Translations under genes and position numbers: made by a program | DNA from: Ceratodon purpureus | Lineage: Eukaryota > Streptophyta > Bryopsida > Pseudoditrichales > Ditrichaceae | DNA length: 64,000 bases | Direction: 5' to 3' | Assembly (NCBI GenBank): GCA_014871385.1 | Contig: CM026431.1 | Coordinates: 5,121,089 to 5,185,088, forward strand | The notes under the pieces: generated by a model | Told to the model about the DNA's origin: nothing | The model's input: only the letters and a program-made list of their open reading frames with translations | The model's database searches: none | In this document: positions 413-26,777 of the stretch, in pieces | How the letters are laid out: every line of letters begins with the position of its first letter | Position numbering within the stretch: the first letter of the stretch is position 1

Positions 413-519
413 ACTACCCTTTAGCATCGGTTGGATTTTACTTATGTGTTTGGGCCTATGGCCAAACTGCAAAGTCAGAAATATGCTTGCAAACAAAGCT
501 ATTAATTCTACTCTGTAAC

Positions 520-4772: not shown

Positions 4773-4789
4773 GATCATGTGTCAGAATA

Positions 4790-4862
4790 CCTTAGATGTA
4801 ACAAAAACAAAAATATTTTCGGTGTATCATAATACCTTAGATGTACCAAAAACAAAAATATT
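4790..4862. repeat. Short tandem duplication
   Basis: The segment AATACCTTAGATGTA(A/C)CAAAAACAAAAATATT occurs twice, about 48 bp apart, within this block. Confidence 0.7.
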
Positions 4863-5409: not shown

Positions 5410-5612
5410 TTAGAATTGGAAGATTGAAAATCATACATGGAAGATTGAAAATCATAAATGGAAGATTGAAAATCATAAATGGAAAGTCAAAGATCATATA
5501 TAGATATGGGGTGCATAGACCAAACTCTCCTCTTTGAAAACCAAAAAATGAAAATTAAAGATCCAAAAATGAAAATTGAAGATTTAAAAATGAAAATTGA
5601 AGATCCATAAAT
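5410..5612. repeat. Two adjacent A/G-rich minisatellites
   Basis: Around 5410-5490 a 20-bp unit (GGAAGATTGAAAATCATAAA type) repeats about four times. Around 5535-5612 a related unit (AAAATGAAAATTGAAGAT type) repeats three to four times. Coding frames through them are simple-sequence artefacts. Confidence 0.8.
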
Positions 5613-6449: not shown

Positions 6450-6567
6450 CAGCATGAGCAGAATTAACATCCTCGTGGGAACTGTCAGGGGGATAATCGG
6501 AAGAGTCGCTCTCTGAAAGCACTTCTCTGTCCTCTTTAGAGCATCTCACTGTGGGGTTGGACCCAAT
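6450..6567 (-). CDS. Acidic Ser/Asp-rich exon, probably part of the left-arm gene
   Basis: The acceptor GAAG is followed by a frame reading IGSNPTVRCSKEDREVLSES and then a Ser/Asp/His-rich stretch to a GTGAGC donor. It joins in phase 0 with the exon at 6877-7011. Its acidic SDSSDYPPDSS segment resembles in character the acidic first exon of the transposase-like gene at 21167. I cannot assign a function. The link to the exons at 7.5-14.1 kb is inferred from strand and proximity. Confidence 0.45.
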
Positions 6568-6876
6568 CTTCAAAACGACAATTCAGTACATCAAACAGTG
6601 TAGAGCAAGAGTGTCCCCGTTTATATTTGTTAATAAAATTGAAGTAAAAGTTGCATGACCTAGAATGAATGAGAGACCGTCGGATGTGACTGTGCAGTGT
6701 GTATCTCAAACACATGAACTATACCGACGTGTGACACGGGTTTGGATTACAATAGTACTTAAAAATGGTGACTTCTGGGCCAAAACAATTAATAAATGAT
6801 TTGGAATTGGATGTTGAACATGGTTGAAGATCCTTAAAAATACGAGTCATGCCAACACCATATTCACTTCTCTTAC

Positions 6877-7011
6877 CTGAGTAACCCCTCGAATTTTTAG
6901 CAGTGGTAAAGAAGTTTGAAAATTTGCTGGATTAGAGAGCAATGAAGGGAATTTGGGATTATTTCCAACAATCAAATTATTCAGCATGCACTCTCCCGTC
7001 GTGTTGTGAAC
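6877..7011 (-). CDS. 45-codon internal exon, probably part of the left-arm gene
   Basis: A well-formed exon with acceptor TTATTCAG and donor CAG|GTAAGAG, exactly 45 codons, phase 0 on both sides. It starts VHNTTGECMLNNLIVGNN and ends LPLLKIRGVTQ. The clean splice sites and open frame argue for a real exon. I do not recognise the sequence. Confidence 0.5.
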
Positions 7012-7494
7012 CTGAATAAGAAAACAGTCACTTTGAAATAAGAGCTCTCATTGTACATTAAAAAGGCCGGATATTTCATTAAGTTTGTAAAACATTTACA
7101 TTGGTATATATAGTTCACATCTTATCAAAGATTGTACCGTGTTAAATGCCCTCTTTGGACTTCTAAATGATGGGCGAGTTGTATGTCAAAAAATCCCAAT
7201 CATACCTAATTCCTCGTATATACTCCTCAAAAAAGTGTGTAGAACTAGAATAGGGGGTGGAAAACTCGTCTACAAAGTATACTAAAATGAAGGGGGGCAC
7301 GTCCACCTACGGAAAAATAATGATTGTTTGCAAAACTATCAAAGCTCTCAAAACATTGTTTGCCAGGTGGATTAGCCTATATGGGAAAAAATGTTCACAA
7401 ATGTTCACAAAGACTATCAAAGTTGTCAAGACGCATGGAGTAGTATAGTACGACCTCTTTGAGCACCCTCTTGAACTACAAAATCCTCTCAAAC
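7012..7494. other. Intron-like or intergenic DNA, nothing definable
   Basis: AT-rich with only short chance frames. It may be intronic between the exons at 6877-7011 and 7495-7583. Confidence 0.4.
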
Positions 7495-7583
7495 CTAGAT
7501 CACTGCAATAGAGTTGATGCGGAGTCCTTGTTTCTCATATCCACCTGGCTGGGTACGTCCGTTACATCTATTCCGGATGGTAC
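7495..7583 (-). CDS. Candidate terminal exon of left-arm gene
   Basis: Acceptor AAACAG at 7584 is followed by a frame that joins the preceding exon in phase 1. It reads GTIRNRCNGRTQPGGYEKQG and stops at 7495-7497. An alternative donor (CAG|GTGGAT, near 7545) in another frame could instead join the exon at 6877-7011 in phase 0, so the 3' structure is not settled. Alternative splicing between two C termini is possible. Confidence 0.4.
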
Positions 7584-7642
7584 CTGTTTGGAGGAAATAG
7601 GTATTAGCAACAAGCTGATAACAAACGGGCGAATCTAATTAC

Positions 7643-8807
7643 CTTGTTTACCATCAAACTGACTTAGTAGGAGAGGATCGGGTGTACATGGGACAACTTC
7701 GGGTTCACGTTCTATGAAGATGGGACTCACCAGTAGGATAGATGGATCTGGAATCACAAGCGCAGTTGAGGCAGGAATAACAGGCGGTGGAACTATTGGA
7801 GATCCTGCATTTGAGATACCAGAGTGAATCTCTGAACGGTTACCAGGTCTGGATGATGGCTCAGAGAAAGGAAATGGCACACGGCCAGCATGAAAATCAT
7901 CATATATGGCCTTTAGGAGATCCTGCTTTGACTCAGCAAACTTCTTGTTCACACGCTCAGTTAACTCCACATCAATCTCGGCTTTCCGCTTTCTCATCCA
8001 CCGCTCTTCAACAAGTTCAGTCTTGACGTCACGGAAAATCTCTGCTTCCAAGCTCGAAGGCGGGAGTGGGAAGGACGCGCTACCAGGCCCAGAAGATGTT
8101 GGCTGCAACGGAGTTGGCACTAGAAGAGGCTCCGGGTCTGGCTTCTCGGGCTGAACGATCACTGGGCAATGAATGAGGCCAGCCCTATTGACCGCTCTGG
8201 TACCCTTTCTTGGCAACACGCAGTTGTATTTCCGCAATAGCCTCGCACGAACAACTTCGTCCTCATCGTCAGAGGAGGAGTCTCCGTTAAGGAGAATTCG
8301 AGGGGGGGGAGGCTTGGCAAATTTCTGAAGGAACAGTTGATTTTCCCTTTCTCGCTCCTCCGCCTCCTTGGCACGCTTCTTGACAAGCTTCTCGTCTTCC
8401 GCTCTCCACGCCTCCTCGGCCAGTCTTGCCTCTTCACGCTCGGGTATTGCAACGTCCTCTGCAACAGACGGCTTTCCTGGAGGCATAGCACAAACAGTGG
8501 AACTCAGAAGCTGTCCATCCCCTTCCTGATCCATGTGCATAGCGTCGGGAGTTGGCTGCGATTGTTGTGTTTCAGGGACGTTGGGAGCATCATGGGGCAC
8601 GGGCTCCTCAGTTACACGTTCCTCAGTAAGCGTCCTCTGGTCCTTCTCAACAAACACCGGGGAGGCATCGACTGGTCCGAGGTTGCACTCGTCAACATCC
8701 ATTATATCCTTGTGGAGACTCGGGACATCTACGACAGCCTCCTTGGGGGAAGATATAGCAGGAAAAATTAACTTTCGCACTTGAGCAGGTTCGGAAGTCT
8801 GATCTCC
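7643..8807 (-). CDS. Charged, coiled-coil/Pro-rich region of left-arm protein
   Basis: A long open block of about 388 codons. The first third is acidic and Pro/Glu-rich. It is followed by a strongly charged helical stretch (EEARLAEEAWRAEDEKLVKK and onwards, probable coiled coil), then SSSDDEDE, then Pro-rich linkers and a second charged helix (ERWMRKRKAEIDVELTERV). It ends at CAAG|GTAATT. No catalytic domain is visible; the composition suits a scaffold or nucleic-acid-associated tail. It is out of frame with the next upstream block, which stops at 8829. Either a small intron (several GT sites, AG at CCCGCAG near 8808) joins them, or a frameshift has broken the gene. Confidence 0.55.
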
Positions 8808-8828
8808 TGCTGCGGGCAAGACAACCGC

Positions 8829-9788
8829 TCAAGCTCCAGGCACGGAGTCTGAAGAAGTGGCGACGGCGGCCTCTCCATCCAAGGTAAGCGTCTCCTGTGA
8901 TGCGTGCTGCAACAGAGTTGCAGGGGTCTTGATTCCGACCCCAGCAATCTCTGCTGCAAGCAATTGTGGGGTAACCGAAGCGGAGTCGTTCATGGCGGTC
9001 AATCCTCCCGGTTCTTGCGTACGAGGTTGACGCTGTGCCATCTCAATCACTACCTCCTCCTGAGATGAAAGTAGCTCCGAAGCACCGCAAGGTTGCCTGC
9101 GGCTTTGACGTTGCTCGTCACGGCGCTTCTTCTCACCCTCGAGAGCTCTCAGAGCTTGCGCTTGCACCGCTGCGGCTCTGTCAGACCGTGTTTGGACCCT
9201 AGACTCTCTCTCTTCAGATTCCTCAAAATGCTCCTTCCCCTTCTCCGATGTGTGACTCCGACTAGAGACATCGTTCATATCTCCTTCATCTTCGGACCAA
9301 CCCTTTTCTTCAAACTCGTCTCCGACGTCACTTGCAGAGCAGTGCGGGGAACAGACGTCGTTGTCTTTGGAGTAAGAATGCGTACTGAGAATGTCGTCAT
9401 CGCTCTTTGAGGGCGCTGTAGGGTTTGATCTCTCGGGACACGCTGAGGCTGCGGTGTGTGTGGCTTGCATGTCAGCAGCTGGAGAATGAAGACCTGGCGT
9501 CTCCTGAGTGGATACGGTACCAGCCACGCTTGTCTGAGACAACCTAAGGCTTTGAGGGTCATCCTCTGTGTAAAATCCGCCCAGTCTAACATTTGGGTGA
9601 ATTTCGTAGTTCACTAAAATCTGGGTATGCATAGGGTCATACTGGTCAACCTTATCACCGACCATGTTATCTTTTGCAGGGAGATAGTAAGTCCGCCAGA
9701 GAGAGGGGGCTTCGGTCACGGCCTTGCTAAGAATCTTTGCAGACCGTTCACTTATTGACTCGAAGGAGATGGTATTACGCTTCATCAT
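8829..9788 (-). CDS. Acidic low-complexity region of left-arm protein
   Basis: The exon begins after CCGCAG (alternatively after TACTAAG slightly upstream) and joins the previous exon, which ends ...LMACR, in phase 0. The first ~60 residues (MMKRNTISFESISERSAKIL and on) look globular. The rest is Ser/Asp/Glu-rich with a basic RRDEQRQSRRQ patch, probably disordered. The frame closes with TGA at 8829, only a few bases before the next open block. Confidence 0.55.
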   Translation of the reverse strand: MMKRNTISFESISERSAKILSKAVTEAPSLWRTYYLPAKDNMVGDKVDQYDPMHTQILVNYEIHPNVRLGGFYTEDDPQSLRLSQTSVAGTVSTQETPGLHSPAADMQATHTAASACPERSNPTAPSKSDDDILSTHSYSKDNDVCSPHCSASDVGDEFEEKGWSEDEGDMNDVSSRSHTSEKGKEHFEESEERESRVQTRSDRAAAVQAQALRALEGEKKRRDEQRQSRRQPCGASELLSSQEEVVIEMAQRQPRTQEPGGLTAMNDSASVTPQLLAAEIAGVGIKTPATLLQHASQETLTLDGEAAVATSSDSVPGA

Positions 9789-9889
9789 CTGCGGGACAAT
9801 CATTTCTTAGTAACCAAGAGAAAACAACAATTGCAAAGCCATTGTCGGATTTAAATTATTGCGATACAAAAACCTAACGGAATTAAATT

Positions 9890-9903
9890 CGAACTTAAGT
9901 TCG
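9890..9903. repeat. Palindrome copy 1
   Basis: CGAACTTAAGTTCG is a perfect 14-bp palindrome in the 180-bp intron between left-arm exons, with TAAG on the right flank. Confidence 0.8.
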
Positions 9904-9968
9904 TAAGCTGTGACGATTGTTATAGTCTGGCTTAGGAAAAATGAGTAGGGAGGACATTCAGGACATAC

Positions 9969-11327
9969 GCGGCAAGCCATCAGGGCCTTGGCTCTAGCAA
10001 ATCCGAGAATAACGTTGTGATTCATGCGGGTATGCCGTCCAATGAAGCGAATATACGTCTCCATACGCAATTCATCAAGGGCCAAAGTACCTCTGTGCTC
10101 AGCCCGATAGTACTCTCGCTTCTCAAATTGATCACCGAAAATGGTCTCCTCCTCAACATCGTCTGAGACGTAACACTGTGAACCATCGTCATAAGGGTCG
10201 TAAGCAACTTCCAAGTACGAGATTTCAACCCGGGAATATTTGTTCTTATGGCCAGGCTCCCCATGAGAGTAATTGTATGGAACGTGCTTGCATCGATGGT
10301 TCGGAAAGAAATGAGAACGGAGTATATTCACCAAACTTCGCCTATCTCTTGGAGCGATGATCATCCAGGCATCATTCGTCCTGAATCCAACCTTCAATGC
10401 CCGTACCTCCATCATCTTCATGATCTGGTTCCAACTACTGCCCTCCTCTGCCTCTTCTGATACCAACGGAAAGTGACGCAAGTCTAGTATGCCAGCATCC
10501 AGCCTCTTTGGATTGAATCTCCACTCGAACTCTGTGACTAGCATTCCGCTCACGCCAAATGTTGCAGTACTTAAGGAGAATCTCCCTTCTGGCTTCCATT
10601 GAATAAAAACAGACCAGTTTCCAGCAGCGACGGACTTAGTGCGGCGATGATTGACTATTGCTTGGTCAATCTTCACAAGCACGTCGTGTGGCGGGAAATC
10701 TGGAGTGGTTGCGTTCTTCTTAATCGTCTCGCTTACAAAAGCAGCAGCCTCCTTAGCAAAGTATATGCACTGCATAATTGTCGAAGAAATAAGCTTATCG
10801 TTCTTCCACCTCCTCCAGTTTGTCTTGTTAATCTCCTGGTTCGCGTCCAGGAAAATGTTTGGCTTTTTGGGACTGAAATAATGAATTCGGTCTCCAATTG
10901 CCTTCACCAACACATCTTTCCATTTACGCCGCTCACACCACTTGTCAAGGGAGAGAGCGAATGTCCATTTCTTGGGGGCCTTGCCAAGGTAGATACGTGG
11001 CGGATTACTCAGTATATGGTCCGCTGCTACTCCAAGGCTCTCGAAGCTAACGCTGGCAAGTCCACGAAGCAAGGTTCCATTTACGTGAGCCAAATTCATT
11101 AGATCCTCGGCATTGCTGGATTCTTTAACTTCTTTCATAGTGTCGAGGTCGATTAATTCTCCAGCTTCGTACTTCTTGAAAACAGACTCCCATTTTGTCC
11201 AGATGTGGTCAGGAGCCATAATGATTTGTCGCTCGCCACGTTTCTCCCACTCTATACGAACTGGTTTGTCTGGATGCTCCTGCTTGACAGTGTGACTTAA
11301 AGACTGACATGCTCGCACGCGGAATGC
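9969..11327 (-). CDS. Central globular region of left-arm protein, family not recognised
   Basis: The exon opens after TTGTTGTAG at 11328 (AFRVRACQSLSHTVKQ) and closes at a strong GTATGT donor after ...LMACR, about 453 codons. The sequence is complex and protein-like, with many aromatic and charged residues, for example WTFALSLDKWCERRKW and FEWRFNPKRLDAGILDLRHF. I recognise no domain. The next intron (9789-9968, only 180 bp) contains a perfect 14-bp copy of the palindrome that marks this whole region. Frame extension past 9969 toward 9807 is read-through of that intron. Confidence 0.6.
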
Positions 11328-11414
11328 CTACAACAAATCCAGAGCACAGTTTAGAAGGAGGCATAATCAGATGAAATTAGAATATATCCATGCTCATTCA
11401 CCTGAAACTGCTTG

Positions 11415-11428
11415 CGAACTAAAGTTCG
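11415..11428. repeat. Palindrome copy 2
   Basis: CGAACT-AA-AGTTCG, in the intron between the ParB-like exon and the next left-arm exon. Confidence 0.8.
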
Positions 11429-11731
11429 TGAAGTAATCCATTTAATCAACTGAGAAATAGTAATATGTATAATTCCAGCAGAGCGAGCTCTCTACTTTTT
11501 GCATTTACCTCTTACGCTAGTTAACATGACATGTGAACTGATACTGTAACTGCTTGAATAAACGCACCAAGCGAGCTAGACTTCGGAAAAGACAGTTAAT
11601 CTTGCGGCATACAACAATCGGACGATCTTATCTTCTACTTGCTAGTCCTTACTAGCTAGGACAGGAACACTGAGGTAGAGATATATTCCTAAACACTCCA
11701 GTTAGAAATCGAAGCCAATTCAAAGACAGTG

Positions 11732-11753
11732 CTTACGAACCGAGGTTCGTAAG
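11732..11753. repeat. Palindrome copy 3
   Basis: CTTACGAACC-GA-GGTTCGTAAG has perfect 10-bp arms around a GA spacer. Compared with copy 4, the innermost base pair has changed on both sides (C/G for T/A), so symmetry has been preserved. Confidence 0.85.
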
Positions 11754-12126
11754 TTTCTCCACTCAAAGTAGAGAAAGTTGCCGTTGTTACATTCAAGATC
11801 CTCCCGTCTTAATTTTGATATACCTCCAAATTTAGTTAGAATGAATTTTATAAGTGAAAATGTATGTGCTCGAATAAACGCACCGAAGTGCTTAAATAAA
11901 GCGCTTAAGTAATAGACAGAAGAGAGGGAAGTTAAGTAATATCTAGACACTACAATTTCAAGGAGTTTACTACAAATTCACAACCAATGCTTGAACCGGA
12001 GAGATCATTGAATTCAAGGCACATCACATTGGGAAGAACTAAATTGTAATAATAAAATCTTACTACCTACAACATTAGTACAGGGCGCGAGATAGAGAAA
12101 GTCGAATAACAGTTTCACAGCAAATT

Positions 12127-12148
12127 CTTACGAACTGAAGTTCGTAAG
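12127..12148. repeat. Palindrome copy 4
   Basis: CTTACGAACT-GA-AGTTCGTAAG has perfect 10-bp arms. It lies in the same intron as copies 2 and 3. Confidence 0.85.
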
Positions 12149-12236
12149 TTAGTCTATTCAATCTGCAGAGTACTAAATTGGTGTTAAACTTATGAAATCC
12201 AATGAATTAAAAACTGAAATGCAAGTGCTGAAATAC

Positions 12237-14134
12237 AAAGCACTAAATTTTAAGTGGGTACAGATAAGCTTGTTGACCTCATATTTAGATTTCGCTTCCA
12301 AGTCAACTGCACTCTCTTCATTCTGAGCAGCTTTCTTCTTTTTTGTAGAGGCGTTCTTGCGTACCATCGGTGGTTTGCCTTCCTGTTCGAACAGGACACG
12401 GCAATGAAGAATCGCATGTAGAAGGGATGTTAGATGTCTTGTTTCGTTCTGCCCCTCGTTGCATTTGTAGGACAGCGCATGCAAATGATGAACTTTATTA
12501 GTCCAAACAACCTGCACATCCCAAAGTTTCATCGTTTCAATGCTTGGGTACGCTTCTCGCAGAATAGCGTCACTGAGGCAGGACTTAGCAGCGTGCCATG
12601 TGTGTTGGCCGTTTATTATTTTGAATTTCCCGGCATTAACGCACTCAGCCCAATCCTTTGGACGATGCGCCAGATTCGGCATGACTGTAAGCACCGGCTT
12701 TACGAAGTTAGCCAAAATTAGATTTCGCTTTATGTCTTCGGCCCCAGCTTTTTCGAAATCTCGATATATCCTCCCTGATCTGTGATCACTCGGCTCCATG
12801 TGTTGAAGGGAGAGTTCAAAAATCTGATCACGTCCAAATATGTACATGTAGTCGGATTCTCGTATGAACTTCTCATTAAGCAGGGCACGTCGTCTCAGCT
12901 CCGCGGCTTTGTCTTCTACCTTCTTTGAACTCACGACAGTGACAACCTCGGTCTCCAACTCCTCAGGGATCTGCAACGTAGCATCTTCGTTCCTAACTAT
13001 TGGATTTGCACTCCATTCTTTTTCCGAGAGTAGGAGAACTTTTGGAGGTTTAGGGGGTAAAACTCGTGGCATAATATTGAGAACGTCATCAAGTCGGCCA
13101 GGCAGTTCTCCACTCATAATCACAGTTTCACCGACGTTAGAGGTTGCTCCAGCAGTGATAATTTCTCTGGAGATGTCTTCGGGCTGGCTTCCAGGTACAT
13201 CATTTGTGCAAGGAGGCGTCTCGTCATCGTCATCGTCTAATCCTGGTTGGCAGCGCAGCGACGTGGACTCCGGGATAGGCGCCGGTGTTACCTGTTTTGG
13301 TTTCCTAGACTTAGAAACTGGTTGCTTTGGCCGCGAAGTCTTTCCGGTTAGGGAAGAGGTAGCGCCAGGGAGCGTTGTTGTTGGTGTTGTAGGAACATCG
13401 CCACTCCTACCTCCCGTGCTCTTCTCGGTGGAAGCAGGTCCAGAGGAGGTTCTAGGGACGACATTACGCGGCGCAGTCCTTGACCGCTTCTCTTCAGCCA
13501 ACTTCACTTTCTTCGCAAGCTTCTGGTTGGTCTTTTCTCTCTGTTTTCCCATTGAATCCGCTTCAGCTATGTGCTGCTCACGGTTTAGAAGTTCAGTTCT
13601 TGCAGACAACCCTGCTGCACGGCGGTCAAGCATCTTCGTTAGTCTGGTCCACTGCAAGGCTACATCATAACTGTGGGGAGGCATTCCTTGAAGGGGTCCA
13701 AAGATGGAGCCAATACAAGATTTCCAAGGCTCCCCCAGTCCAGCGGATTTGGTTAAGAAGTAATCCAAATCAAAGGGGTGATTGTCCGTGATTTGTATAA
13801 TTAGCTTTGCAATAGACTCATTCCCGTAAAGAGTTGCAATCACCACGCCTGGAGCAGTAGCTATCCCGAGGATAGTGACTGACTTAAATGCCTTCCAGTG
13901 ATAGTTGTTTTCGGACTTAAATTTTCCAACAGCAAGGGAAAAATGAACATTGTTTCTGTCCGAACTTGTTTCGGGCGTGATTGACCAAGCTGATCGATCA
14001 AGCTCATTTAGTGTCACTCCAATTTCACCGGTCACAATCTCAGATGCCAGCCCCTCCGTAAGTTTTGATCGATCCAGTTCAGTTACATAAGGAGACAGAC
14101 GAATTGTCTGTTGCAAAAAACTATTTTGCTCCAT
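12237..14134 (-). CDS. ParB/sulfiredoxin-like domain protein, first coding block of left-arm gene
   Basis: The start is ATG at 14134 (MEQNSFLQQT), directly after a CCCAG acceptor, with G at +4. Residues ~190-230 form a charged helix, and ~230-360 are Pro/Ser/Thr/Lys-rich. From ~430 to ~560 there is a ParB/Srx-like segment: FELSLQHMEPSDHRSGRIY, a helix, FVKPVLTVMP, then FKIINGQHTWHAAK. That last motif matches the family's 'I(I/V)DGxHRxxAA' nucleotide-binding turn, with Thr in place of Arg. Bacterial ParB uses this fold to bind CTP and load at palindromic parS sites; other members are nucleases or sulfiredoxin. A basic KKKK segment follows near 620. The 3' exon edge is uncertain (GAG|GTCAAC near 12270 is one phase-0 choice; read-through continues to 12173). 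The fold assignment is from motif pattern only. Confidence 0.6.
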
Positions 14135-14234
14135 TCCTGGGAGTTCAACCACACAGGAAAGGTAAAGCTCCAATAGTCATCAACTAGAATTTGTATTCTC
14201 TTAGTGATGTTATACAAATCTTCCCTCATCTCTA

Positions 14235-14248
14235 CGAACTTTAGTTCG
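14235..14248. repeat. Palindrome copy 5
   Basis: CGAACT-TT-AGTTCG, about 100 bp upstream of the left-arm start codon. Confidence 0.8.
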
Positions 14249-14361
14249 CAATCTAATGGTTAGACCTGCTACCCTTGCTCTGACTCTAGCGGTTCATGTA
14301 GTGACGTCGCAAAATTCTCCTTTGGAAGCCTCGGAAAAAAGGGATCGCCAACTCCAAGTTG

Positions 14362-14375
14362 CGAACCGGGGTTCG
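14362..14375. repeat. Palindrome copy 6
   Basis: CGAACC-GG-GGTTCG within a longer imperfect palindrome (TTG on the left, TAA on the right), about 230 bp upstream of the left-arm start codon. It again shows paired changes in both arms. Confidence 0.8.
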
Positions 14376-14650
14376 TAACCAGTCCACACTAATATGAATA
14401 AACTAGTCACTGCATTTATTATCTTGTCCATTGTAATTCTATTCGTTGTCAGATGTCAGAACACAAACGCAGCGGCAAAGTTCTGACTATACCATGTGCT
14501 TGGCAAATTTTGGGGGGGAAATAGTGGAAGAACAAGGATGGACTGAAGGGACCCTCTAATGCTCTTACTTGAATTACATAAGAATTGATTAATTTTCTTC
14601 CTATTTGTGCCATATAACAGAACACCCTCCCTCTAATTTGGAGTGTAGGA

Positions 14651-14675
14651 GCTTGCAAACTAAGTTCTATGTAAG
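14651..14675. repeat. Decayed palindrome copy
   Basis: GCTTGCAAACTAAGTTC followed by TATGTAAG keeps the outline of the motif with several mismatches. Confidence 0.45.
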
Positions 14676-15660
14676 TCACATACGGACCCGATCAACACCG
14701 ACCAGAAAGTCCAAAGTATTGCACTTAAAGTAACAGAGACGACAGAGTGAAGAAAAATCGAAAGTGGAGTGTACATACTGAGGAGATATTTTATGTAATG
14801 CACTGCAACAAGGTGCGCCTTTGTTAACCCGCCTCCTCCTGCAAGCAATGGAATTCCCATCAGACATGTCAATTGAATTCTGATGATCAGAGCTTCAACT
14901 ATGCCGAGAAAGAAGACCAAAAAGACAGAAACTTAATTTAGCAAGAGAGTAACATTGCGTACAAACCAGAGGTATATGACGAGACTTGCGTTCGGAGAGC
15001 ACTCTCAGCCTCCCCCTCGTCCACGCCGCTAGCTTCTCCACTTCCTGCGCGCTCTTGACACTGCAAGGGAGTCTGAGGAATTGGCGCCTAACCTAACGGT
15101 TCTGGAAATAAGAAACCCTAGGAGGGGAAACATAGAAAGCCCGAGAAGAGAGCGAGGGCGTCGAAGCCTCACCTTATCAACAACAATGCAGCTTGAGGTG
15201 ACCAACGTGGGAAGACATTATCCACAGCACCAAGGTTTCCGAAGATCTGAACGCAGAGCCGCGCAATGCTCCAACGCCGCCTCCAAGCCGTTTTGCAATG
15301 AACTCAGCAACACCGTCCCACCTCCGTAAGCAACACGCATGTCTTCATCTCCGAGAAGGACATCACTTACAAGACGACAAAACGACAACCACGTCCACAG
15401 CAGGTGATTGACGCCGAGAGCAGGAACGACAACGAGGTGCAATGGAAGCGGAGAGGTCGCGGCGATGGGAGCTGTCGCTGAGGAGAGGGATGTCCTCGGC
15501 GGTAGGGTTTAGGGCAGGGCAATGAAAGGGCAGCCCGGGCATGTGTACTTGAAATTTCCACGGGCAGAACTCCTCCAAGGCGATAGATTCTTTAGGTACG
15601 CCCACTCGGTCAAGGGCCCCTCCTCTTTCACAGCACCCACGTGGTTTTAATAAGATCACA

Positions 15661-18600
15661 CTAAAAATTTAATTATATTTAAAATAAATTCCCTTTAATT
15701 AAATATCTACAATAGTTGTATTGACAATGGTTGATCATACGTCAATGTCGTACATAATGGCTAAGCCACCAAATTGTTGTAGATCCAAGAAATGCAACCA
15801 TGACAATACTCTGACAAACAATAATTTTTTTAAAATACACACTGTAACCATTTGTCATTTTTATACACGCTAAATTTGATTTGTTTGTATTAAACAAAAG
15901 TTACATAATTTGCAATAATTACATGTAATGTCTATAAGATGAGTTAAAAAAATATTCTTTTTTTAAAAAATGTTTTTTTTTATTAAAAAAATTAATAAGC
16001 ATATGTTTGTCTAAAAAAAGAAAATGTAAACATATACTTATATGATTATAAACACCATTTAAAAAAATAAAATTCATTAAATGTAAATTCCTTTTAGAAT
16101 GCAACAAAATGTAATTGAATATTTACTTTGGGTTAATTTTAAGAACTTGAGCTCCAAAAGTTCCTATTGATGCTCCTTCACAAATGGCAGCCGCACCCAA
16201 TAGCATTAATCTCTTAATCTGTCATCCAAAAATAAAATAAAAACTATAATTTTGAAATTTTAAGTTATTTTTCATAGTCGTTTAAACCTATAATAAAAAT
16301 GTAGAATTAGTGAACGACGGTTGAGGACAGGCCAAAATATTTCATGCATTCCATGACTACTAAATTGAATTAATTATGGATACATTTTTGTTGAAACTTT
16401 CATCGTACTAGATAAATGTAAATATTTTATGTCGTATTAAATGTACAACTTTGCATGGGTGTACTCCACGTGTTCATTTGTAATTATTCTTCAGTATTTC
16501 ATCATTAATATCGAACCTTTGATCATTAATCACAATTTGTTCATTATGTATTTTCCAACTGGGCTCAATAATTTGTATATTTTCAATATACAAATTGTTT
16601 TGAGGCTTAATTAAAGAGTAATATTTTGCCACTTTATCTATAGACTTTGGATTATAAATCATCATTTAGTCATGATCAGCCCACAGAATCAAATTATTCA
16701 TCTTCTTCTGAGAATTACGAATTTTTATTTTTGAATTATTATTCTTGATTATTTTGTAATAGCAATCTAGAACCTTTAACAAATACTCATTCATTTTTGG
16801 ACAAGTTCATCGACATTTTGAACTTTTTTTTTTTCCCTTATTCCGGTAACAGTCTTTTTTTGTTTATTTCCAAACTCGTGAACCAATTATAATTTATTAT
16901 TTATTTTTTGCAATGTTTAGGAACTCTAATTATGATTCCGTGGGTTTTATTAGAGATCATCGTATGTTCCAATCATAAATCTATATTTCTTACGGAAGTT
17001 CAGATGTCAATTATACATGTAAGGATTTATAGAATTTCACTCTAGCCTTAGAATATTTGCAAATATAGCGTGATTATTTACCAAACTCGTTCAGGGTTGG
17101 CATTTTGACGAGCCGGATGTAGCCCGTGACTGCGCCTCAAGAAATTTTGTACTCTAATTGACCCTATCTCCATTTAAAAAAAAAGTAAAAAAGAAAGGAG
17201 TACGGTGAGGGACATATGAAAAAAAAGGGAAGAAAAATTAAATGCTTGGAAAAAAAATGAATGATATAATGAGTGAGAGCTTGAGGGAGACGGGAAGAAA
17301 GGAAAAACAAAAAAGCAAAAAAACAAGCGTCAGATAGGAGATAGAGATAGAAAGTAAGAGGAACAATAAAAAAATATTAAGGAAAATAAAAACAATGATC
17401 GACTGTGAAGTACGACAACGGAAAGATGAATAATCAGGCGAGAAACAATTCAAAAGGGGACGTAATTAATGATATAGTGAGCGAGGAAGAGATATGAGGA
17501 CGGTGGTAGATATAAAATAAAGGGGAAAAAAATAGAAGAATAACGACAACAATGACTGATAGAAGGAGAGAGTTTATCATGTTTACAAGGGCAGTCTCCA
17601 AAAATTACAAAGATAAGCTTCAAAGCTTTTAGTAATTTTTGAACTTCTCGTTTAAAAACTTGTCAAAATTCAAGACTTCTGAATTTATAAAATTTGTTTT
17701 TTCCTAAAAATTAAAAATTTATACAAGTAGCTACTCACCGTTCAGTGTCTCCTTAGCTCACAAATTGTTTTAGTAATGCATGTTTTTTACTAATTTGTCA
17801 ATTTTATACGTTCTTATAGAAAATATTTTTTTTAGGTCTAAAAGGCGTTTTCTGGCCTAAAATTTTGCATGACCATATGTAACCTAGTTAGTTGCATGGA
17901 AAAAAAAGTGACCTTATCAAATCTTCCTTTGGCCCATTTGCACCATGCCTCTCGAATAAGGCCCAAAAAAATATTTCTTGAAACTTTGAACACTAAGGTC
18001 TCACTAATGAAAAACATCCAACGGTTGAAATTTGGAACAGTTCTTTTAAATAGGGTTAGGTACAAGATCTTACGGTTGAAGTTCCAAAAAACGTTAAGAA
18101 AGTTGTTTCATATTCTCAAAGGCCATAGTGGTAATTAATTGCAATTTTGAGGATTGAGGCTCTAAAAAACACAAGGAAATTTAGGGGTTAATAATAGATT
18201 GAGATAGAGATAGTCAGATAGAAGGAGAGAGGGATAGAAAATAACGGGAAAACAAATACAGAGGAACGAGGAAAAATAAATGATAGAGTGAGAGAGATGC
18301 AAGGGGAATTTCCATTCCACACTTCATGTAATTTGAAATTGTGACTACTATACGCACTGCCATTTTACTTTATCATCAAAAATATAGCTGCAAAGAATGA
18401 AAGCCATTTTCCGTATGTTACATTTGAAGTTCACCATGTGCTTTTTCCATTGCCTAGTAATAACAATAGAACTTCACTTGAAAACTTCAGAAGAGAATGA
18501 TATAAATGTTAGAATGACATGTCGCATGTTATATTGAAATAGGGATTTGATTCAAAACATTTCTTAAATTGCACTATTGTCAATATGTAATATTCTACAT

Positions 18601-19640
18601 TAGAATGCATAGTTGATTTGCACAACATCAATTGAATACTTTTCAAATACAGCATGCATCACAACTCAATACAATATACAATCGTTCTTAAATGTACTCA
18701 ATGATGTATAACCTTTCTTTGCCTTAATATAATGTACAATGTTGACCTTACTTTATATACCGAATGAACTCTAATCTTTCTTGAATATATTGAATGAGGA
18801 TTTTGAGAAACTGTATTTTTCAAAAACACTGTATATCTTCCTCCTCCAAATTCAATGCAGTATTCCACGATCTCAAAGAATGGTTCGTTAATTGACAATT
18901 GTTTGCTATTTTAGAAATTCATAAACCCCATTGAAATTCATACACCCCATTGAAATTCATATCCCTCACAAAGTCGAAAACATCATTCTGAATATTGCAT
19001 GATCTAAACTTCATATCACATTAGCACGTTCTCTGTAGACCCAACTACTATTTGCTCTACTGTGGAAATGTTTTTGAAGTTTCTTTTTTTAATAAACCGT
19101 CTTTTTTCATTCCACTCGTCAGTTTGAATAGAATTACCTTTCATTTTATATAATTAATCAAGAATTTCCTTGGCCAGTTTTTTAATGGAAGCTACCCTTA
19201 CTTGTATACAGATTGGTTCTATGTTCCTTTTAATCTCACTATGCCATAACAAGGTTGCAAATTATCTTTTCAATTACAATTTCCGAAAATAATCATTATT
19301 ATTCAGGTTTACATCAACAGTCTGTAGTCAATAGCTCACAAACTGAAAGTCCTTCTTCACCCTAGCTCTTTCCACCAAGTATGCCCCAAAATTTTTATTT
19401 CAAATAAAGCGTTTCCAATTTCATGACATTGAAACGCATGGCAATTTTCCCATCTACACAGTTTTTGCTGCACCTTTTCTGAAGATGACTACCGTAAATT
19501 AAAAATCAAATAGCATTAATTTCCCACACACAGCCGTCGCCGTCGTCCACCTTCCCTGCATTGAATACGTAGATAATTTGTAATCACTTCGGTGGGCAGC
19601 CCGGAATTCACTCCAAAATTTCGCAGTGGGCACTCATTCG
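15661..19640. other. AT-rich gene desert in the middle of the two-armed unit
   Basis: Apart from the exon-like block at 16123-16218, I see no gene. Purine-rich tracts (17.2-17.6 and 18.2-18.3 kb) and poly-A/T runs dominate. It may be an insertion that separated the two arms; no terminal repeats were found to prove this. Confidence 0.5.
16123..16218 (-). pseudogene. Single exon resembling Bax inhibitor-1 (TMBIM) family
   Basis: After an AG acceptor (TGACAG) a short frame reads IKRLMLLGAAAICEGASIGT and then FGAQVLKINPK before a stop. The pattern of basic residues, hydrophobic helix, GASIG, then a run ending in I(N/D)P resembles the second or third membrane helix of Bax inhibitor-1, an ER membrane cell-death suppressor. 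No neighbouring exon was found and the surroundings are over 70% AT by eye, so this is at best an isolated relic. Confidence 0.3.
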
Positions 19641-19647
19641 GACCCTA

Positions 19648-19665
19648 AAACCAGAGGTATATAAG
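19648..19665 (+). promoter_or_regulatory. Candidate core promoter (TATA box) for the right-arm gene
   Basis: AAACCAGAGGTATATAAG contains TATATAAG, followed about 30 bp later by a pyrimidine-rich TCACAATTCTGTCTTC typical of a start site. The same 15-mer AAACCAGAGGTATAT occurs at 14963-14977 in the same orientation. If it is the promoter, the transcript has a 1.5 kb leader, probably with introns. Confidence 0.4.
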
Positions 19666-19811
19666 TTTCGGGGCCTCACAATTCTGTCTTCTTTTTTTGG
19701 CTCTCGTCATGATGCATCGTATGCTCTGAGATTTCTTGGGACTGCTCATTTGTTGCCGACGTCACTAGGACTGTTCTCAGCTCTGATAGGTGGGTTTTGT
19801 CAGAGATAGCC

Positions 19812-19893
19812 CGTCAGTGGCAGGCGTGTCAGTCAGTCAGTGGCAGTCCGTCAGTGGCAGTCAGTCAGTGGCAGTCAGTCTGAGTCAGTCACC
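19812..19893. repeat. GTCAGTGGCA tandem repeat
   Basis: Units of GTCAGTGGCAGTCAGTCA type repeat four to five times with small variations, in the presumed leader of the right-arm gene. Confidence 0.8.
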
Positions 19894-19943
19894 TCGATAT
19901 CTGTGCCAAAACTGACATGTCAGTTCTTTTGGAATCCGGGTTA

Positions 19944-19957
19944 CGAACTTCAGTTCG
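19944..19957. repeat. Palindrome copy 7
   Basis: CGAACT-TC-AGTTCG with TTA on the left flank. This is the first copy on the right-arm side. Confidence 0.8.
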
Positions 19958-20506
19958 AATCCTATTCTGTAGCCGGGTACTCTTGAATGTAACTCTCATT
20001 GCACGTTTCCAACTTCCGTTCGTTTATTGTATACGTCTGTCCATTCAAGTCAGAACTTTAATATAAATACACTTCCAGAAATTGACTTGCTATCCATCTT
20101 AGTCCTCAAACTTTATTGTACCTTGATGCTCCAAGGGCGGCTTAGGATTGCAGCACATTGCTTGGCTGCTCGCTCATGTCCTTCCCAACATAGGCATGTA
20201 ATATAACGCAACATGGTCACTGATTCTGTTATCTCTTTGACTGTAGTACTTTACAAGAAGACTATGAAGTTCATAATTTGGTAGTTTAGTTTTGGTCTTA
20301 CTCAAAATATGTTTTGTTCAAACAGTCTAGAATGAACATTGCTCACGGCCACTCTAATATGTCTCCACAGGAGTAGGGTCATTCATTTCTATTCTTGACC
20401 CCATTGATTCCGTTGGAGAATTCTCGACCGTTGGAAATCCTTAACTGTTTATATTGCTTCCTTCTTCTTTTCAGGTTCACTTTCTCATCGATCGCGGAAA
20501 TGCAAA

Positions 20507-20526
20507 TTACGATCTTAAGTTCGTAA
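20507..20526. repeat. Palindrome copy 8
   Basis: TTACGATCTTAAGTTCGTAA is a 20-bp palindrome with one mismatched pair. Confidence 0.8.
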
Positions 20527-21009
20527 CCATCACTCTTACAACGTGAAGATCAAGGATTGTAGGGTTGGAAGTGGTGCTTCACAATTCTATCTGCGCAACC
20601 GATAGCAGAACACATCAAGTCCCATTAATTTTCATGGATATTGCTCAACTCCATCTGCAGTACTAAGGTATTATTCTATCGATACTATAACATTGGCTGT
20701 ATATGTTTCCCTATTTCTTGAGGTGGTAAATGTTTTCTGAAATTGTCTCCGATTCATCAAGGTCCACATTACAGCTCCAAGACTTCTTCTTGCTTATTGT
20801 CAAGCACTTTATTGAACATGGCCTTAAGAAACCACTGCCATTTGTGATCTCCTCTACGTGATATTCTCTCCCACAATAATCTTCAATTGTCTTCAGCGTA
20901 ATTGCTTAAGCAACCATCTTGCATACTTTGTCCAAGAATTGATACCAGCCATTCATGTCCCTTTTTGTGATAAGGTCCTCATGCAATATGGTCCAAGTCG
21001 CTAGTCCGA

Positions 21010-21030
21010 GTTACGAATTGAGTATTTGTC
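21010..21030. repeat. Decayed palindrome copy
   Basis: GTTACGAATTGAGTATTTGT keeps the left half-site only. Confidence 0.4.
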
Positions 21031-21166
21031 CTAAAAAGAGCTAGCTGATTTCAAATTGGTATTGTTGAGGAATGAGAGCCCAATCTCATGGTCACTATTT
21101 GTTTAGATGATATCTCACTAGCTTGAAGTTCCACCTCTATCATTGATAGATTGAGAAGACCCAGCA

Positions 21167-24100
21167 ATGGCCTCACGTTTATTACAAGCAAGAAATATAC
21201 ATCATGGCTTCAATCATCCAATAATGGCTAGGCGTTCTTTACGAGCAAGAAATATACATCCTTGCTTCAATCATCCAGTAGCGGCTCCCTTGACAAGTTC
21301 CTCCTCTGATGAAGATGATGACTACACGCCAGATTCTGATGCAATACACATCAGTGATACAGACTCAACATCAAGTGGAGATGAAAGTAGTGGATGGGTA
21401 TGTTTTCTCCAAGTTTCACGTTATGTTCCTTCTCTAGAGGTTATTATGTGTCATGTCTATTGCTATGGAGGACTATTGCTTAATCTATATTCCTTGCAAT
21501 GAATAAATGTTCTTCTCGACCAAAAACATAAACAATGAACGATACTACAGCTTGTCTTAATATTCCTAAATAGGCCTTGGTCGAGTTTTTTTAAAACCAA
21601 TGATGTTTTAACAAGGACGGTTACGACGTTACAAGTATCATCACTACATCATTATGATTAACGTGAATCCATATAATTTATAATTTATTGTGTTTCTGCA
21701 CTTGAATAGGATTGTTCTTCATAGCCAACATTCTATAAACCGTTGCTTTTCTTCTCTACATACTACTACTATACATGTGGCATGCACGTCGCTGATTTGT
21801 GCGTCATTTCCATTGTTTTTGTCTTCATACCTCCTTTACTCTCCAAGTAAGAGTAGTCTCATTTGAGCTAAATAAGCTAATACCGTGTAGGAGCGGTATT
21901 TGTATGGTACTGCCTATCATTGTTTCCTACAAAGTAATAGAGCAGTAATGGATATCTCACGATCATGGCATTGGTGCCACGTTACGAACTTCAGTTCATT
22001 ACTTCTCAATGCCTCTTCTGGGACGTTATTGTGTTCTCAATCATTACCACCTTCAACTTGAACAGAGACGGCAATGTGCAGGACACACCATCTACCTCTG
22101 ATGTCTCGGATAACGAGAGTCGTGACAAACACATAGACAATTCACCAATTCCTGCTTGCGAAGATATTGCAAGAGAAGACTGGAAAGGACTAATTGTGGA
22201 AGCAAGGCATGAACACGGAATCAAGTTTGCTACTGCACTCGTGACTGCTACAAATTCAACAATGTCAGTGGATGGAGAGAACGACCTAGGGGATCACCAA
22301 TTTGGTATTGTGGTTCTTGAAGTATTTGAAGGCGATTCTATCTTACGAGACCATTGTCTATCTTGGCCTGTAAACTTGCTTTTTTATAAGAATGTTAGTG
22401 TCTATGATCATCTCCGAAGGCACTCAACAACTATACTGGAGGACGAACTTAGAAGGGTAGATCGGAAAGGGAAGCGCACCTACGATACCTCCAATAGACC
22501 ATCCAAGGAGAAGAAAACTCAGAAATGGAGGATTAGTGATGATGAGATATCCAAATTGTATATGGCTGACTGTTGCCACCGTCATTGCACCAGGGTATTT
22601 TCCCCAGAGACTGTTCGTTCGCTTCGATATGGGATGTATCTACACAATCCAGAGGAAAGGCGTTTGAGAAACCTTGACGTCCACCGAATAAGATTTCGCT
22701 CCTCGGATGGAAAAGAGGATTTGGTCATGCTTGAATTTAAAGAAGTTTGTATAAAAGGGTGGAAGCTTATCCACGGTGTTCCTGACCGAACGTTTCGTCG
22801 CTACAACAAACAAGCTAAGGACGGAGAAGGAACTCGACCTCATGGCAATCTTGGGAAGTCAAAGCCAAGACTAGCAACACTGCAAGCCACGGAAACTTTA
22901 CGTACACTTGTTGACGGGCTTGCTGATCAAATGCCGTATACATGCACACTTCCTTCAGGAGAACGAGTTCCGCAAAAGATTCTTCCAAGAGGAATTCAAT
23001 GGAAGCAATTTCTGCCTCAGATAAACAAGGTAGAATACTACTACTTCTACATCTAAGCATCCATTATGCTTTCCATGCATTCCATGATTTTCTAAAATTG
23101 ATTGTAAAGTTGTAACTCATTACGTTCCATATTTTGTAACATGTGAATGTTCAAGTTGGCTTGAAACCTATTTCCGTTGCTCTTCTAAGTAAGATCCGTG
23201 TGGGTAAATATGCGGACTACATGATCAAAAGAAGAGGGGACCTTTTCGCAAGGTGCTCGAAGTGTGACTTGTACACAACTCTTCGTAATGCAGCACCCCG
23301 CGGATCAAAGGAGCAAAAACAGTGGGCCCTCAAATTCAACAAGCACACTAAAGCTCAGTGGGCAGCGCGAAATGTGTATTGGTCAGATCGTCTTCATTCT
23401 ATTAACCGGCCACTGGAGTTTGTATCTATTATCCATGACAAAATGGATCACTCTAAGACAGCACTTCCATGCTTGCGGAACCGGACAAAAGACCTCGATG
23501 GCCTTTCAAAATTGCCTATATCGGTGACTGGGATGTATGCCCATGGTCATGCTGATGCAAGGTATGCCCACTATACGCTAGACGTTTATGCAAATGATAG
23601 CAATTTCACAATCGGTTCCATTGCCAAATTGCTGCGTGACTTAGAGGATCCTCCGAAAACATACACCAGAGCTCTTTTCAAGGAAAATGCAAGCAATCCT
23701 TTATATGATGCTGTGCTCTACGGAAAAGAGATGTGTTTGCCGTCACTAGGAGAGCCAGCAGACACTCCAAGACCAAACCGAGACCTTCCTCCTGTGTTGC
23801 ATGTCCAGCTTGATAATTGTTGGCGGGAGAATAAAAATAGATTCGCTTTTTGTTTCTGGTCACTTCTGGTCGCAAAGAAGATTGTCCAAGAGGTGGTAGT
23901 CTCATTCATGATGGTTGGACATACACATGACGACATCGACGCTTCTTTTGGAAGATGGAGCATGGTTTTGAAAGAAAAAGACCATCCAACGCTACCGATG
24001 CTCATGAAATCCTATATGGATCTAGACGAAGATGGTCCCATGATTCCACATCTAATTGAAGAGGTTCCGGACTTCAAAAAGTTCATTGCTCCTTACATTG

Positions 24101-25260
24101 CATCGAAAGGTAAGAAAAAACTGCAGGGGCATAGCAAAGGAGCCCAATTTAGATTCTTCTTGCACGAAAATGAGTGGCCTTTGATGCAATACAAGTTAGC
24201 TTGTACAGAGAAAGAATGGAAACCTATACACGCACCTGGTATCAAATTGTGGAAAGAAGACAACGAAGGTAAGCCAATCCTTCCTCCAGATGGCGCAGAA
24301 CCAAGTGCGGTTAAACCGCATAAGCTCAAGCTCAGTGATGATTTATTAAAGGGCATTGAAGGGTTCTTGGCTTATTACAACAAACTTCTGAAAGAAGAGG
24401 TTACGCCGGCATTCAAGGCACAACAACTGCATTACGTGGAATACTGGACTGGTGTACGAGATGCAATCAAATCAATGGGTCCTCAATCAACAGAGTCAGA
24501 TACCGCCGGAACTCCTGTAGAAAGAACTCCTGATGAGGATGCAGAAGCGAGTAACTCTGGACAATGTGAGAATGAGGATGATGCAAATGATCGCGATATC
24601 GCCAATTCTTTGGAAACAGATGAGGTTCTCCTTCATCCAGAAGCATCAAATGTAGAGGATCTGCATGAAAATTACACATCAAATGAGAATGTGCACTGCG
24701 ACATTCCTTTGCGGTTTGGATTTTGGCCTAAAACGAGACTCCCAATCGATGCGAGTGTATCAAGGACAAATAGTGAAATTCCTTTACCGCAAGCTCTATT
24801 TCAGGAAGGCGATCTTGATTTGGAAGAGCAGCCGTACATTGGTACAGTGGAGGGTAGACCCCCTCCTCCATTTACAGCTGCAAGGGATATTCGGAAGGGT
24901 TTTTTTGTATTTGTTAGACCAGGGGAAGGCTGTGAAGATCCAATCTGGTTAGGAAAAGTCATGGAGCATCCACAAATGAATGCATCGTTGCCAAATTATA
25001 AATCTCTCAAAGTAAGATGGTGGGTCCCGAACAATGCAAACAATCCAGCGGATGATGCATACCGTGGATGGAATACGCTCCCCATGTTTCCATATAAACT
25101 GGACTTCGACGCAAAAACACAGGACAGGATTTCAACAGATAGCGTTCTTGCTTCTTGGAAACCAGATAAGGGACGGATTCAAGTTGCCCCAACAATACAA
25201 ATTCAATTCGCTGAGGACAACCTTCGCCGGATTATCGAGTTTGAGAACAGGTGCCATTGA
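21167..25260 (+). CDS. DUF7869-type transposase-like protein, three exons, apparently intact
   Basis: Exons 21167-21397, 22082-23029 and 23194-25260 join in phase 0 (donors TGG|GTATGT and AAG|GTAGAA; acceptors GTGCAG and AGTAAG) to give 1081 residues with no stop. Residues 1-77 carry a 20-residue duplication and an acidic SSSSDEDDDYTPDSD tail. Residues ~230-390 include a CCHRHC cluster followed by the VCIKGWKLIHGVPDRTFRRY region typical of this family. Residues ~394-700 form the DUF7869-like core, with acidic motifs IIHDKMDHSK (D475/D478), QLDNCWRENKN (D600) and GHTHDDIDASFGRW (H636-D642). These look like an RNase H/DDE-type metal site. The last ~150 residues hold a possible BAH/Tudor-like module (KGFFVFVRPG...WLGKV). 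Family proteins occur in many eukaryotes and are suspected transposases. A palindrome copy lies in intron 1. The intact frame suggests recent activity or selection. Confidence 0.75.
21982..22001. repeat. Palindrome copy 9
   Basis: TTACGAACTTCAGTTCATTA has one mismatched pair and lies in the first coding intron of the right-arm gene, about 80 bp before the acceptor. Confidence 0.75.
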
Positions 25261-26271
25261 ATTCATCATCGACCACCAGTACGAAGAGCACAAGTCTGAG
25301 GAACATTTTCAAATAGTATAGTATATTAAAACCATCCCGATCTTTTGCTTCACAATGTCGGAATTTTACAATATTCATCCTGAACTACTACGTAGTACCT
25401 GATATATGAAATCTTAGATGCAACTGTACACTTTGCATTTTTGTTAATAGTTAGCAAAGAAGAATATAGGATCTCTTTTATCTAATGCTTAGACACATAC
25501 TTAGTTTTTGAACGTATGACTGCTATCATCATATGCTAACTCCTTTGAGGACTTATATAAATACAATATTGAAGTAAACCTTTATGCTAGGCTTCTTATA
25601 ACCTAGTAATTTCCATACTATAGTCATCCACCTCGGATGTTATATTTTTGGATCTTCAAAATATCCCCTATATCATGGCATCGAAACTCCTAAGCGGTCG
25701 CCTTCGAAGTCATTTCCAGATTTTTCGAATCTAGGACTGGTTCAACCTTTTAATCTCTTATAACTTGAAGAAAGAATACCTTAAGTCGGAGGGCAACAAT
25801 GAAAGTTTGTACCCACGAAGATCATGAAGAATTTGAACACAACAAATAATCAACATCTGCGTTTTTCTAAGTAATCGTTGTTACACGATGGTTGATATTT
25901 AACAAACCATGATTGTGTACCTTTAGTCCTTAAAGATGATTCCCAATCATAATACAAACCAAAGTTCGAAAGCCGTGCAAAGACCGCACAGAGTTGGCTG
26001 AGTACTCACATGTCATTCACTCTTCTCATTGATTAAAAAATGTCTGCACCTCACATCCTTCACTTTTAGTCCTCACGTTATACATCCGTCGTAACCTTTT
26101 TTCACAGCAACTTGTTCCAATGAAGTTATTGTATTCCAGTGTAACTCTGTTATGTTCACGAGCACCAACGTTTATGTATGGCACTCTTTACTCACCATTA
26201 TCGGTTCCCGTCTACTATGCAGTTGTCATTTTTTCCTTTGAATAAAATGCTTTTCCATTACTTTATCTTTT
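25261..26271. other. 3' flank, no gene seen
   Basis: AT-rich. It contains a short palindrome ACTACTACGTAGTA near 25387 and a half-site AAAGTTCGAAAG near 25964. The right end of the element could be here, but I could not identify a terminal repeat. Confidence 0.4.
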
Positions 26272-26465
26272 ATTGGAATTTCTTTATCTTTACTAATTTT
26301 ACCCTTTCTTTACTAAATTTACCTTTTCTTTACTGAGTTACTTTTCCTTTACTTTAATTACTTTTCTTTACTATGATTACTTTTCTTTACTATGATTACT
26401 TTTCTTTACTATGATTACTTTTCTTTACTATGATTACTTTTCTTTACTATGATTACTTTTCTTTC
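26272..26465. repeat. Minisatellite of 19-bp CTTTACTATGATTACTTTT units
   Basis: About five near-perfect 19-bp units (26362-26463) are preceded by more diverged CTTTACT-type units. It ends about 200-300 bp before the BURP gene, so it is probably promoter-proximal. Confidence 0.85.
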
Positions 26466-26777
26466 AATTTCCATTCAGATCTTTTAGAATTGTGCCGCAT
26501 CTTTTACTGTTTGCTCTTGTATTCCGTATTAATGTTATTTCACGTTATTTTTTATATGTCCATATTATTCCACATTGGCACCCCATTTATAGTAAAAAGT
26601 ATTACTAATTTGTACGTCCACACTAATATGGACCCCTACTTAAGGTAATATTATTGTCACACGTCAAATAGTATGACACTGAATGTAACGTGTAGTGGCC
26701 AATTTAATGAATATGGCGTTCATGGTAAGTACACCAACATCCTTTTTTCTGTTCTAGCTCATTTTTCCCTTGATCAT

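Follow-up and report, generated by a model that had tools for sequence, protein, structure and literature searches.

The stretch analysed here (the window) is a 64-kb segment of the Ceratodon purpureus genome, C11:5121089-5185088, whose left part holds two genes pointing away from each other, one for a ParB-like protein and one for a DUF7869 protein, together with dispersed short palindromes (Table 1). The first-pass annotation had placed the ParB-like gene, the DDE-like gene and the palindromes in one large element, and this was borne out: both genes and the palindromes are parts of a single mobile element with terminal inverted repeats (TIRs). The whole element occupies C11:5115605-5147808 (32,204 bp), with its left end 5.5 kb before the first base of the window. 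Its ends gave an inverted match of 45 bp (97.8% identity, the 4-bp flank included), and the termini read AACGCC...GGCGTT. Homology to a copy on C9, 98-99% identical in DNA, stops sharply at window position 26720, and the right end was also sharp in other copies. The main new result is that related families of the element carry different palindromes, which do not mix in the loci compared.

Searching the genome with the right end showed these termini to be present at many positions, and the conserved ends that comparison of locus copies was expected to reveal were recovered in multiple copies. Other copies aligned with most of window 301-26720 in segments of 91-99% identity. Clean 4-bp target duplications flanked five of the seven copies read at both ends (CATG in the window, and AAAG, ACTA, ATAA and TCAT). 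A copy on C6 showed a TTTT duplication only when paired with a farther left end, and the C7 copy, one of the seven, had no target duplication at its ends. The copies span 13.6-39 kb between nearest termini, and the C6 copy would reach 75 kb if the farther left end is the true one; this structure (C6:18022606-18097636) holds two ParB-like copies and two left ends, and looks like a partial duplication of the element. Related right termini, 75-76% identical, were seen on C8, C51, C54, C70, C88 and C103, mostly small contigs. In the C9 copy (L040-L042), the spacer separating the core genes is interrupted by about 4.6 kb of inserted DNA, at the equivalent of window 16302/16305. An element end at window 2903 was rejected, because other copies run on leftward and carry an insertion there.

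Nine palindromes of the type TTACGAACT, with arms separated by a 2-bp spacer (the A/B palindrome), were found in the window at up to 3 mismatches, each with 0-3 mismatches and no more than 3 bases from where the first-pass annotation had seen it. The rest of the 64-kb window contained zero further palindromes at this threshold, as had been claimed, and 100 shuffled windows averaged 0.04 (maximum 1), versus the nine real ones. Two or more decayed copies had also been announced. One of these, at 25952, has 4 mismatches in the window and only 2-3 in three other element copies (L015, L016 and L017); the second candidate, at 16139 and also with 4 mismatches, may be a chance match. Exon and intron borders were set by reading splice signals in the sequence alone, and on this reading none of the nine palindromes would lie inside a long coding exon. 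The sites appear to occupy putative introns and the 5' regions of both core genes, in agreement with the earlier claim of confinement to introns and upstream DNA, and the decayed site is located 3' of the DUF7869 gene.

Genome-wide, 289 sites matched the A/B palindrome at up to 2 mismatches, versus 13 for the control pattern read backwards. All 50 sites that were placed have an A/B-type copy of the ParB-like or DUF7869 gene no more than 5.2 kb away (for 49 of them, no more than 5 kb), and the zone of 10 kb on either side of the gene copies used amounts to 0.245% of the genome. For these 50 of the 289 sites, the clustering around the two genes that had been foreseen was observed. In IMG/VR, the palindrome was present in five stretches on four contigs, and the 28-kb contig 3300031227_000318 holds three exact copies (L002:5891, L002:7268 and L004:6521), more than chance would suggest; these are perhaps phage operators.

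The search of the genome with the DUF7869 exon gave at least 106 matches (63 of 1456 candidates scored), which were merged into 62 copies, one short C7 fragment being left out; that with the ParB-like exon, using the family-A protein as query, gave 68 matches, merged into 63. A ParB-like match was present within 30 kb of 24 of the 62 DUF7869 copies, and 23 of these 24 pairs were divergent, like the pair in the window. Among the A/B-type DUF7869 copies (n = 21, 56-100% identity, decayed copies counted in), 14 were paired at this distance and seven unpaired, at least two of the latter being short elements of about 14 kb. Homologous loci with just one of the two genes, which the first-pass annotation had named as evidence against a joint element, are thus found in these seven cases. 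About 20 near-uniform ParB-like matches away from the DUF7869 copies listed (28% identity, a frame of about 507 amino acids, mostly with two TAG; for example C6:8988064, C12:13676375 and C2:9711777) are perhaps a separate repeat family with its own ParB-like gene.

The families differ in the identity of their DUF7869 sequence to that of the window: 89-100% in family A (short loci compared), 65-72% in family B and 53-54% in family C. In a blind search for recurrent dyads, the A/B palindrome ranked first in the window and in elements of families A and B. The family-C element C6:3.32M yielded a different palindrome in this search, TTAAGGTG-NN-CACCTTAA, with the 2-bp spacer in common. This locus contained 27 C-type copies in 20 kb at up to 4 mismatches; 20 mononucleotide shuffles gave 0.9, for a motif that was derived from this very locus. 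All eight short family-C loci carried the C-type palindrome, 51 copies in total with up to 2 mismatches, and none carried the A/B type; several of these loci closely copy one another, and one overlaps with the long C locus. Conversely, the A/B palindrome was present in all nine short family-A loci and in six of seven short family-B loci, and the C type in none. Across the 44 loci compared along with the window, a set from which L001-L009 and short end pieces were excluded, the A/B and C motifs never occurred together. For family D (C10:6.16M), a scan with wider spacers gave a dyad that resolved into five copies of CCAGTAGTCAATTGACTACTGG in one 19-kb locus, suggesting that this family possibly carries a third palindrome. 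Tandem expansion of sites was also seen. Locus L047 (C4:20.34M) contains, at 5110-7374, a 755-bp tandem array of about three units that is packed with palindromes and adjoins a family-B ParB-like gene. The ParB-like intron holds partial degenerate repeats, 72-78% identical, and two of the three matches include sites; the C9:5.47M copy is devoid of palindrome 3 along with about 305 bp, that is, about one intron repeat unit holding one site. No report of family-specific dispersed palindromes in such transposons was found in the literature searched, which was largely without subscription papers and Repbase reports.

Table 1. Features of the transposon in the window (positions are those of the 64-kb window).
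Feature	Position	Strand	Basis or remark
Transposon, part in the window	1..26720	none	terminal inverted repeats, CATG duplication, aligned copies
Ubiquitin-like open frame, left-arm cargo	167..601	-	PF00240, E 1.2e-25
ParB-like gene, probable further exons, low-complexity tail	7635..9806	-	open frames 7635-8828 and 8829-9806; predicted splicing
Palindrome 1	9887..9906	none	window scan; inside an open frame, in a stretch reading as intron 9806-9960
ParB-like gene, next exon	9964..11327	-	alignment to its counterpart in C and D elements
Palindrome 2	11412..11431	none	window scan; between two ParB-like gene exons
Palindrome 3, CGAACC/GGTTCG	11733..11752	none	window scan; between two ParB-like gene exons
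Palindrome 4, perfect	12128..12147	none	window scan; between two ParB-like gene exons
ParB-like gene, large exon, motif INGQHTWHAA	12176..14140	-	homologue matches; one named homologue, from Ceratodon
Palindrome 5	14232..14251	none	window scan; 5' of coding parts
Palindrome 6, CGAACC/GGTTCG	14359..14378	none	window scan; 5' of coding parts
Palindrome 7	19941..19960	none	window scan; 5' of coding parts
Palindrome 8	20507..20526	none	window scan; 5' of coding parts
Palindrome 9	21982..22001	none	window scan; inside an open frame, in a stretch reading as intron 21398-22068
DUF7869 gene, middle exon	22069..23028	+	open frame; predicted borders
DUF7869 gene, last exon, invariant D103, D225 and D267	23140..25260	+	PF25273, E 1.1e-43; alignment of 18 sequences
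Decayed palindrome 10, 4 mismatches	25952..25971	none	3' of DUF7869 gene
Right terminal inverted repeat, ending ...AATATGGCGTT	26682..26720	+	inverted match; partner outside the window, L053 from 517
Target site duplication CATG, right copy	26721..26724	none	left copy outside the window

In the 18 DUF7869 sequences aligned, the aspartates D103, D225 and D267 were among the invariant residues. They would be compatible with a transposase of the RNase H fold, without amounting to proof, and a PDB search with the DUF7869 protein gave no meaningful match. The ParB-like proteins of families A, C and D have in common the motif IxGQHTxxAA and scattered residues, and little else; 'ParB-like' is a label suggested by this short motif alone. 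The end of the 9964..11327 exon resembles, by eye, the S-adenosylmethionine-binding motif of amino-methyltransferases, and a methyltransferase nature of this exon was not supported by any Pfam or PDB match. Window 301-2901, in the left arm, was found at 98% identity in two C6 copies. Besides the ubiquitin-like frame, the left arm contains two frames, L053:3333-3884 (-) and L053:3987-4574 (-), that resemble a TET/JBP-like dioxygenase and a C2H2 zinc finger. The dioxygenase frame gave a weak Pfam match (E 3.8e-4), its 20.2 bits falling short of the cut-off of 34.9, with H-x-D and a distal H recognised by eye, and the zinc-finger frame matched zf-met at E 1e-4, exceeding its cut-off. Directly past the right end, a BURP-domain gene begins (window 26725-27764), and the element may have inserted in its promoter or 5' part. 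Farther on, window 57000-57400 and 60500-61100 are G+C-rich, with recurrent GGGCCGTC dyads and spurious-looking long open frames on both strands.

Membership of the moss element in Lanisha/CMCT was rejected; Lanisha was reportedly proposed by the authors of the Ceratodon genome. According to an excerpt of PMC12730594, Lanisha/CMCT elements have CA...TG termini and the motifs CxxC and H(3-4)H after the second D, whereas the moss termini are AACGCC...GGCGTT and the window protein has no CxxC/H(3-4)H between D225 and D267; short target duplications are a shared trait, 2-5 bp in the CMCT clade and 4 bp in the moss (PMC12730594). Salpingoeca Sola1 elements are described with a 4-bp target site duplication and an inverted terminal repeat of 32 (PMC6875170, excerpt), and Physcomitrella is listed with Sola1 (PMC9033089, excerpt). 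Because the moss element combines 4-bp target duplications with TIRs, a ParB-like case is known from Ectocarpus and Sola1 is listed for Physcomitrella, it is probably a Sola1-like cut-and-paste transposon with DUF7869 as the putative transposase. The Sola1 feature of 4-bp duplications together with TIRs is present in the moss element. The word DUF7869 was absent from the literature searched, a search that most subscription papers and Repbase reports lay outside.

What the data establish is the element with its ends, the pairing of its genes, the clustering of the placed sites and the different palindromes of the families. We infer binding, the identity of the binder and the effect of binding as follows. 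The element is a giant cut-and-paste transposon, 32-39 kb in its longer copies, in which DUF7869 would act as transposase and the divergent gene would supply a large accessory protein, the ParB-like one. The palindromes, dispersed over introns and upstream DNA at the core genes, would be sites for a symmetric protein encoded by the element, likeliest this ParB-like protein. Binding at many non-coding sites of its own family could let such a protein recognise 'self', and might determine how the core genes are packaged in chromatin or transcribed, through anti-silencing or autoregulation of a VANC-like kind. Site and binder would change together as families diverge, leaving each family with its own palindrome. 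That the dispersed palindromes serve self-recognition in a Sola1-like giant transposon by being bound in this manner we regard as somewhat probable. The case for protein recognition now comes from the differing palindromes of different families, which replace the argument from compensatory changes. More tentatively, and with less confidence than would make it probable, giant land-plant transposons may possess a private self-recognition code, in which ParB-like protein and palindromes co-evolve as lock and key, to find and epigenetically mark or protect their own copies, perhaps with the TET/JBP-like dioxygenase.

Several observations weigh against the self-recognition reading. The ParB/Srx-like motif noticed at first is present as a short motif, and the wider kinship with ParB was not supported: no ParB match was obtained in Pfam or PDB, the comparison with a narrow F-plasmid ParB profile (hhalign) was no better than a reversed control, and the position of the GxxR phosphate motif that constitutes ParB Box II (PMC12704722) reads GQHT in ten of ten aligned ParB-like sequences, C and D elements included. 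No DNA-binding domain was identified in the element proteins, and the sequence data do not assign the sites to the ParB-like protein over the transposase. The first-pass annotation had also taken the change CGAACC/GGTTCG in both arms of some copies as a sign of maintained symmetry. This change is present in two of the nine window copies (11733 and 14359). Among 53 non-redundant A/B palindromes from the window and 19 loci, the same change in both arms was found 3 times versus 3.05 expected under independence, and because there is no excess, the claim of maintained symmetry is unsupported within this family. At the last arm position of A/B there were 2 matched changes versus 0.35 expected. In 40 C sites from nine loci, matched arm changes numbered 17 versus 11.9 expected, mostly from two positions. 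Compensatory change as a sign of symmetry was accordingly rejected within families by this independence test of arm changes. The distribution data have their own weak points. The 50 placed sites are all exact matches on C2 to C7, and the remaining 239 were counted only. The other 41 DUF7869 copies include at least ten paired ones (nine divergent) and 31 with no ParB-like match within 30 kb using the family-A query. In their short flanks, one of the seven B loci and four of the five loci classed as decayed or other had no A/B site. L030, a diverged copy read over 4.3 kb, had none of the three palindromes. In family D, the first two blind dyad scans found nothing, and two of the five CCAGTAGTCAATTGACTACTGG copies are near-identical and only 65 bp apart.

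Repeated internal sites are often bound by transposases, and the palindromes might likewise be sites of the DUF7869 transposase, for assembly of the transposition complex or self-repression, the ParB-like protein having a different role. DUF7869 exons are flanked by palindromes in families A, B and C, and sites occur at loci with no nearby ParB-like match, such as C2:20.04M and C7:6.50M, which favours binding by the transposase. However, the left arm (L053 and window 1-9886) has no site at up to 4 mismatches, and the site nearest to the right terminus, the decayed one at 25952, is about 0.75 kb away, hence these are not subterminal repeats; moreover, ParB-only remnants (C2:19.90M and C7:12.44M) still carry sites. 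We judge this explanation unlikely. Host regulatory sites, or functionless inheritance from one ancestral element, are a decidedly improbable source of the palindromes. In family A the copies mostly show 96-99% identity in the DUF7869 exon, and the C9 copy shows 98-99% in DNA, so that conservation within them is uninformative and would suit inheritance. Nevertheless, the same palindrome occurs in A and B even though, in the one B locus compared over a long stretch, the sequence upstream of DUF7869 could not be aligned to that around the window's palindromes at E 1e-10; the palindrome of family C is a different one with the same geometry, and the placed sites are restricted to the vicinity of DUF7869 and ParB-like genes, which speaks against host sites. 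Tiny palindromic mobile units inserted repeatedly into the elements would account for many dispersed near-identical 20-mers and for the stretch of about 305 bp with one site by which two element copies differ, but this difference equals about one degenerate intron repeat unit, no target duplication was seen by eye flanking the sites, and the motifs are family-specific, with the placed sites at DUF7869/ParB-like elements; we give this very little credence. Just as hard to credit are RNA or DNA hairpins acting in intron processing or as cruciforms, for although the sites are located in putative introns or leaders and might fold into a stem with a loop of 4 bases, the 53 A/B sites showed no surplus of paired changes, and sites are also found 3' of DUF7869 (25952 in A) and, in family-C loci, beyond the DUF7869 exon.

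Self-recognition through family-specific palindromes is directly testable with short oligonucleotides in this moss, given families whose palindromes exclude one another and several DUF7869 and ParB-like frames that are open, and the change of recognition as families split is likewise open to direct test.

The arrangement had been put forward as new, and in this respect the first-pass annotation went too far, as ParB-like proteins have already been reported in algal transposons (PMC12477816, excerpt). Sola1-1_Ec32 of Ectocarpus, of 21.5 kb, carries a ParB-like/methyltransferase gene on the strand opposite to the transposase; the same paper refers to cases in green and red algae and proposes that such ParB-like proteins bind their own transposon and modify it epigenetically (PMC12477816, excerpt). 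The moss element resembles it as a giant transposon with the ParB-like gene opposite to the transposase strand; it differs in its land-plant host, its DUF7869 transposase, its size of 32-39 kb and a ParB-like gene without a Pfam-recognised methyltransferase domain, and the available part of PMC12477816 names neither family-specific dispersed palindromes nor binding sites for the algal cases. Fungal transposons with a TET/JBP-like dioxygenase gene aboard offer a parallel to the weak match in the moss, but they have other transposase groups, and the term ParB does not occur in the main text as available (PMC12730594). Bacterial ParB-parS is alike in its dispersed palindromic sites and a GxH-type protein motif; the moss protein differs by having no sequence-profile support and GQHT instead of GxxR, and it resides in a transposon, not a replicon. 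No ParA partner turned up in general Pfam scans, and no dedicated search was made. In VANC21/VANDAL21 of Arabidopsis, as in the moss, an element-specific short motif is located in introns and non-coding DNA, undergoes tandem expansion and differs between related families, but that motif, YAGTATTAY, is non-palindromic and arrayed in one orientation, the superfamily and the protein are others, and the function in the moss would follow by analogy (PMC5735166, excerpt). Family-specific non-coding motifs with tandem expansion, the VANC-type feature, are nonetheless found in the moss elements, and if their sites were targets of anti-silencing, a VANC-like solution would have arisen in another type of transposon.

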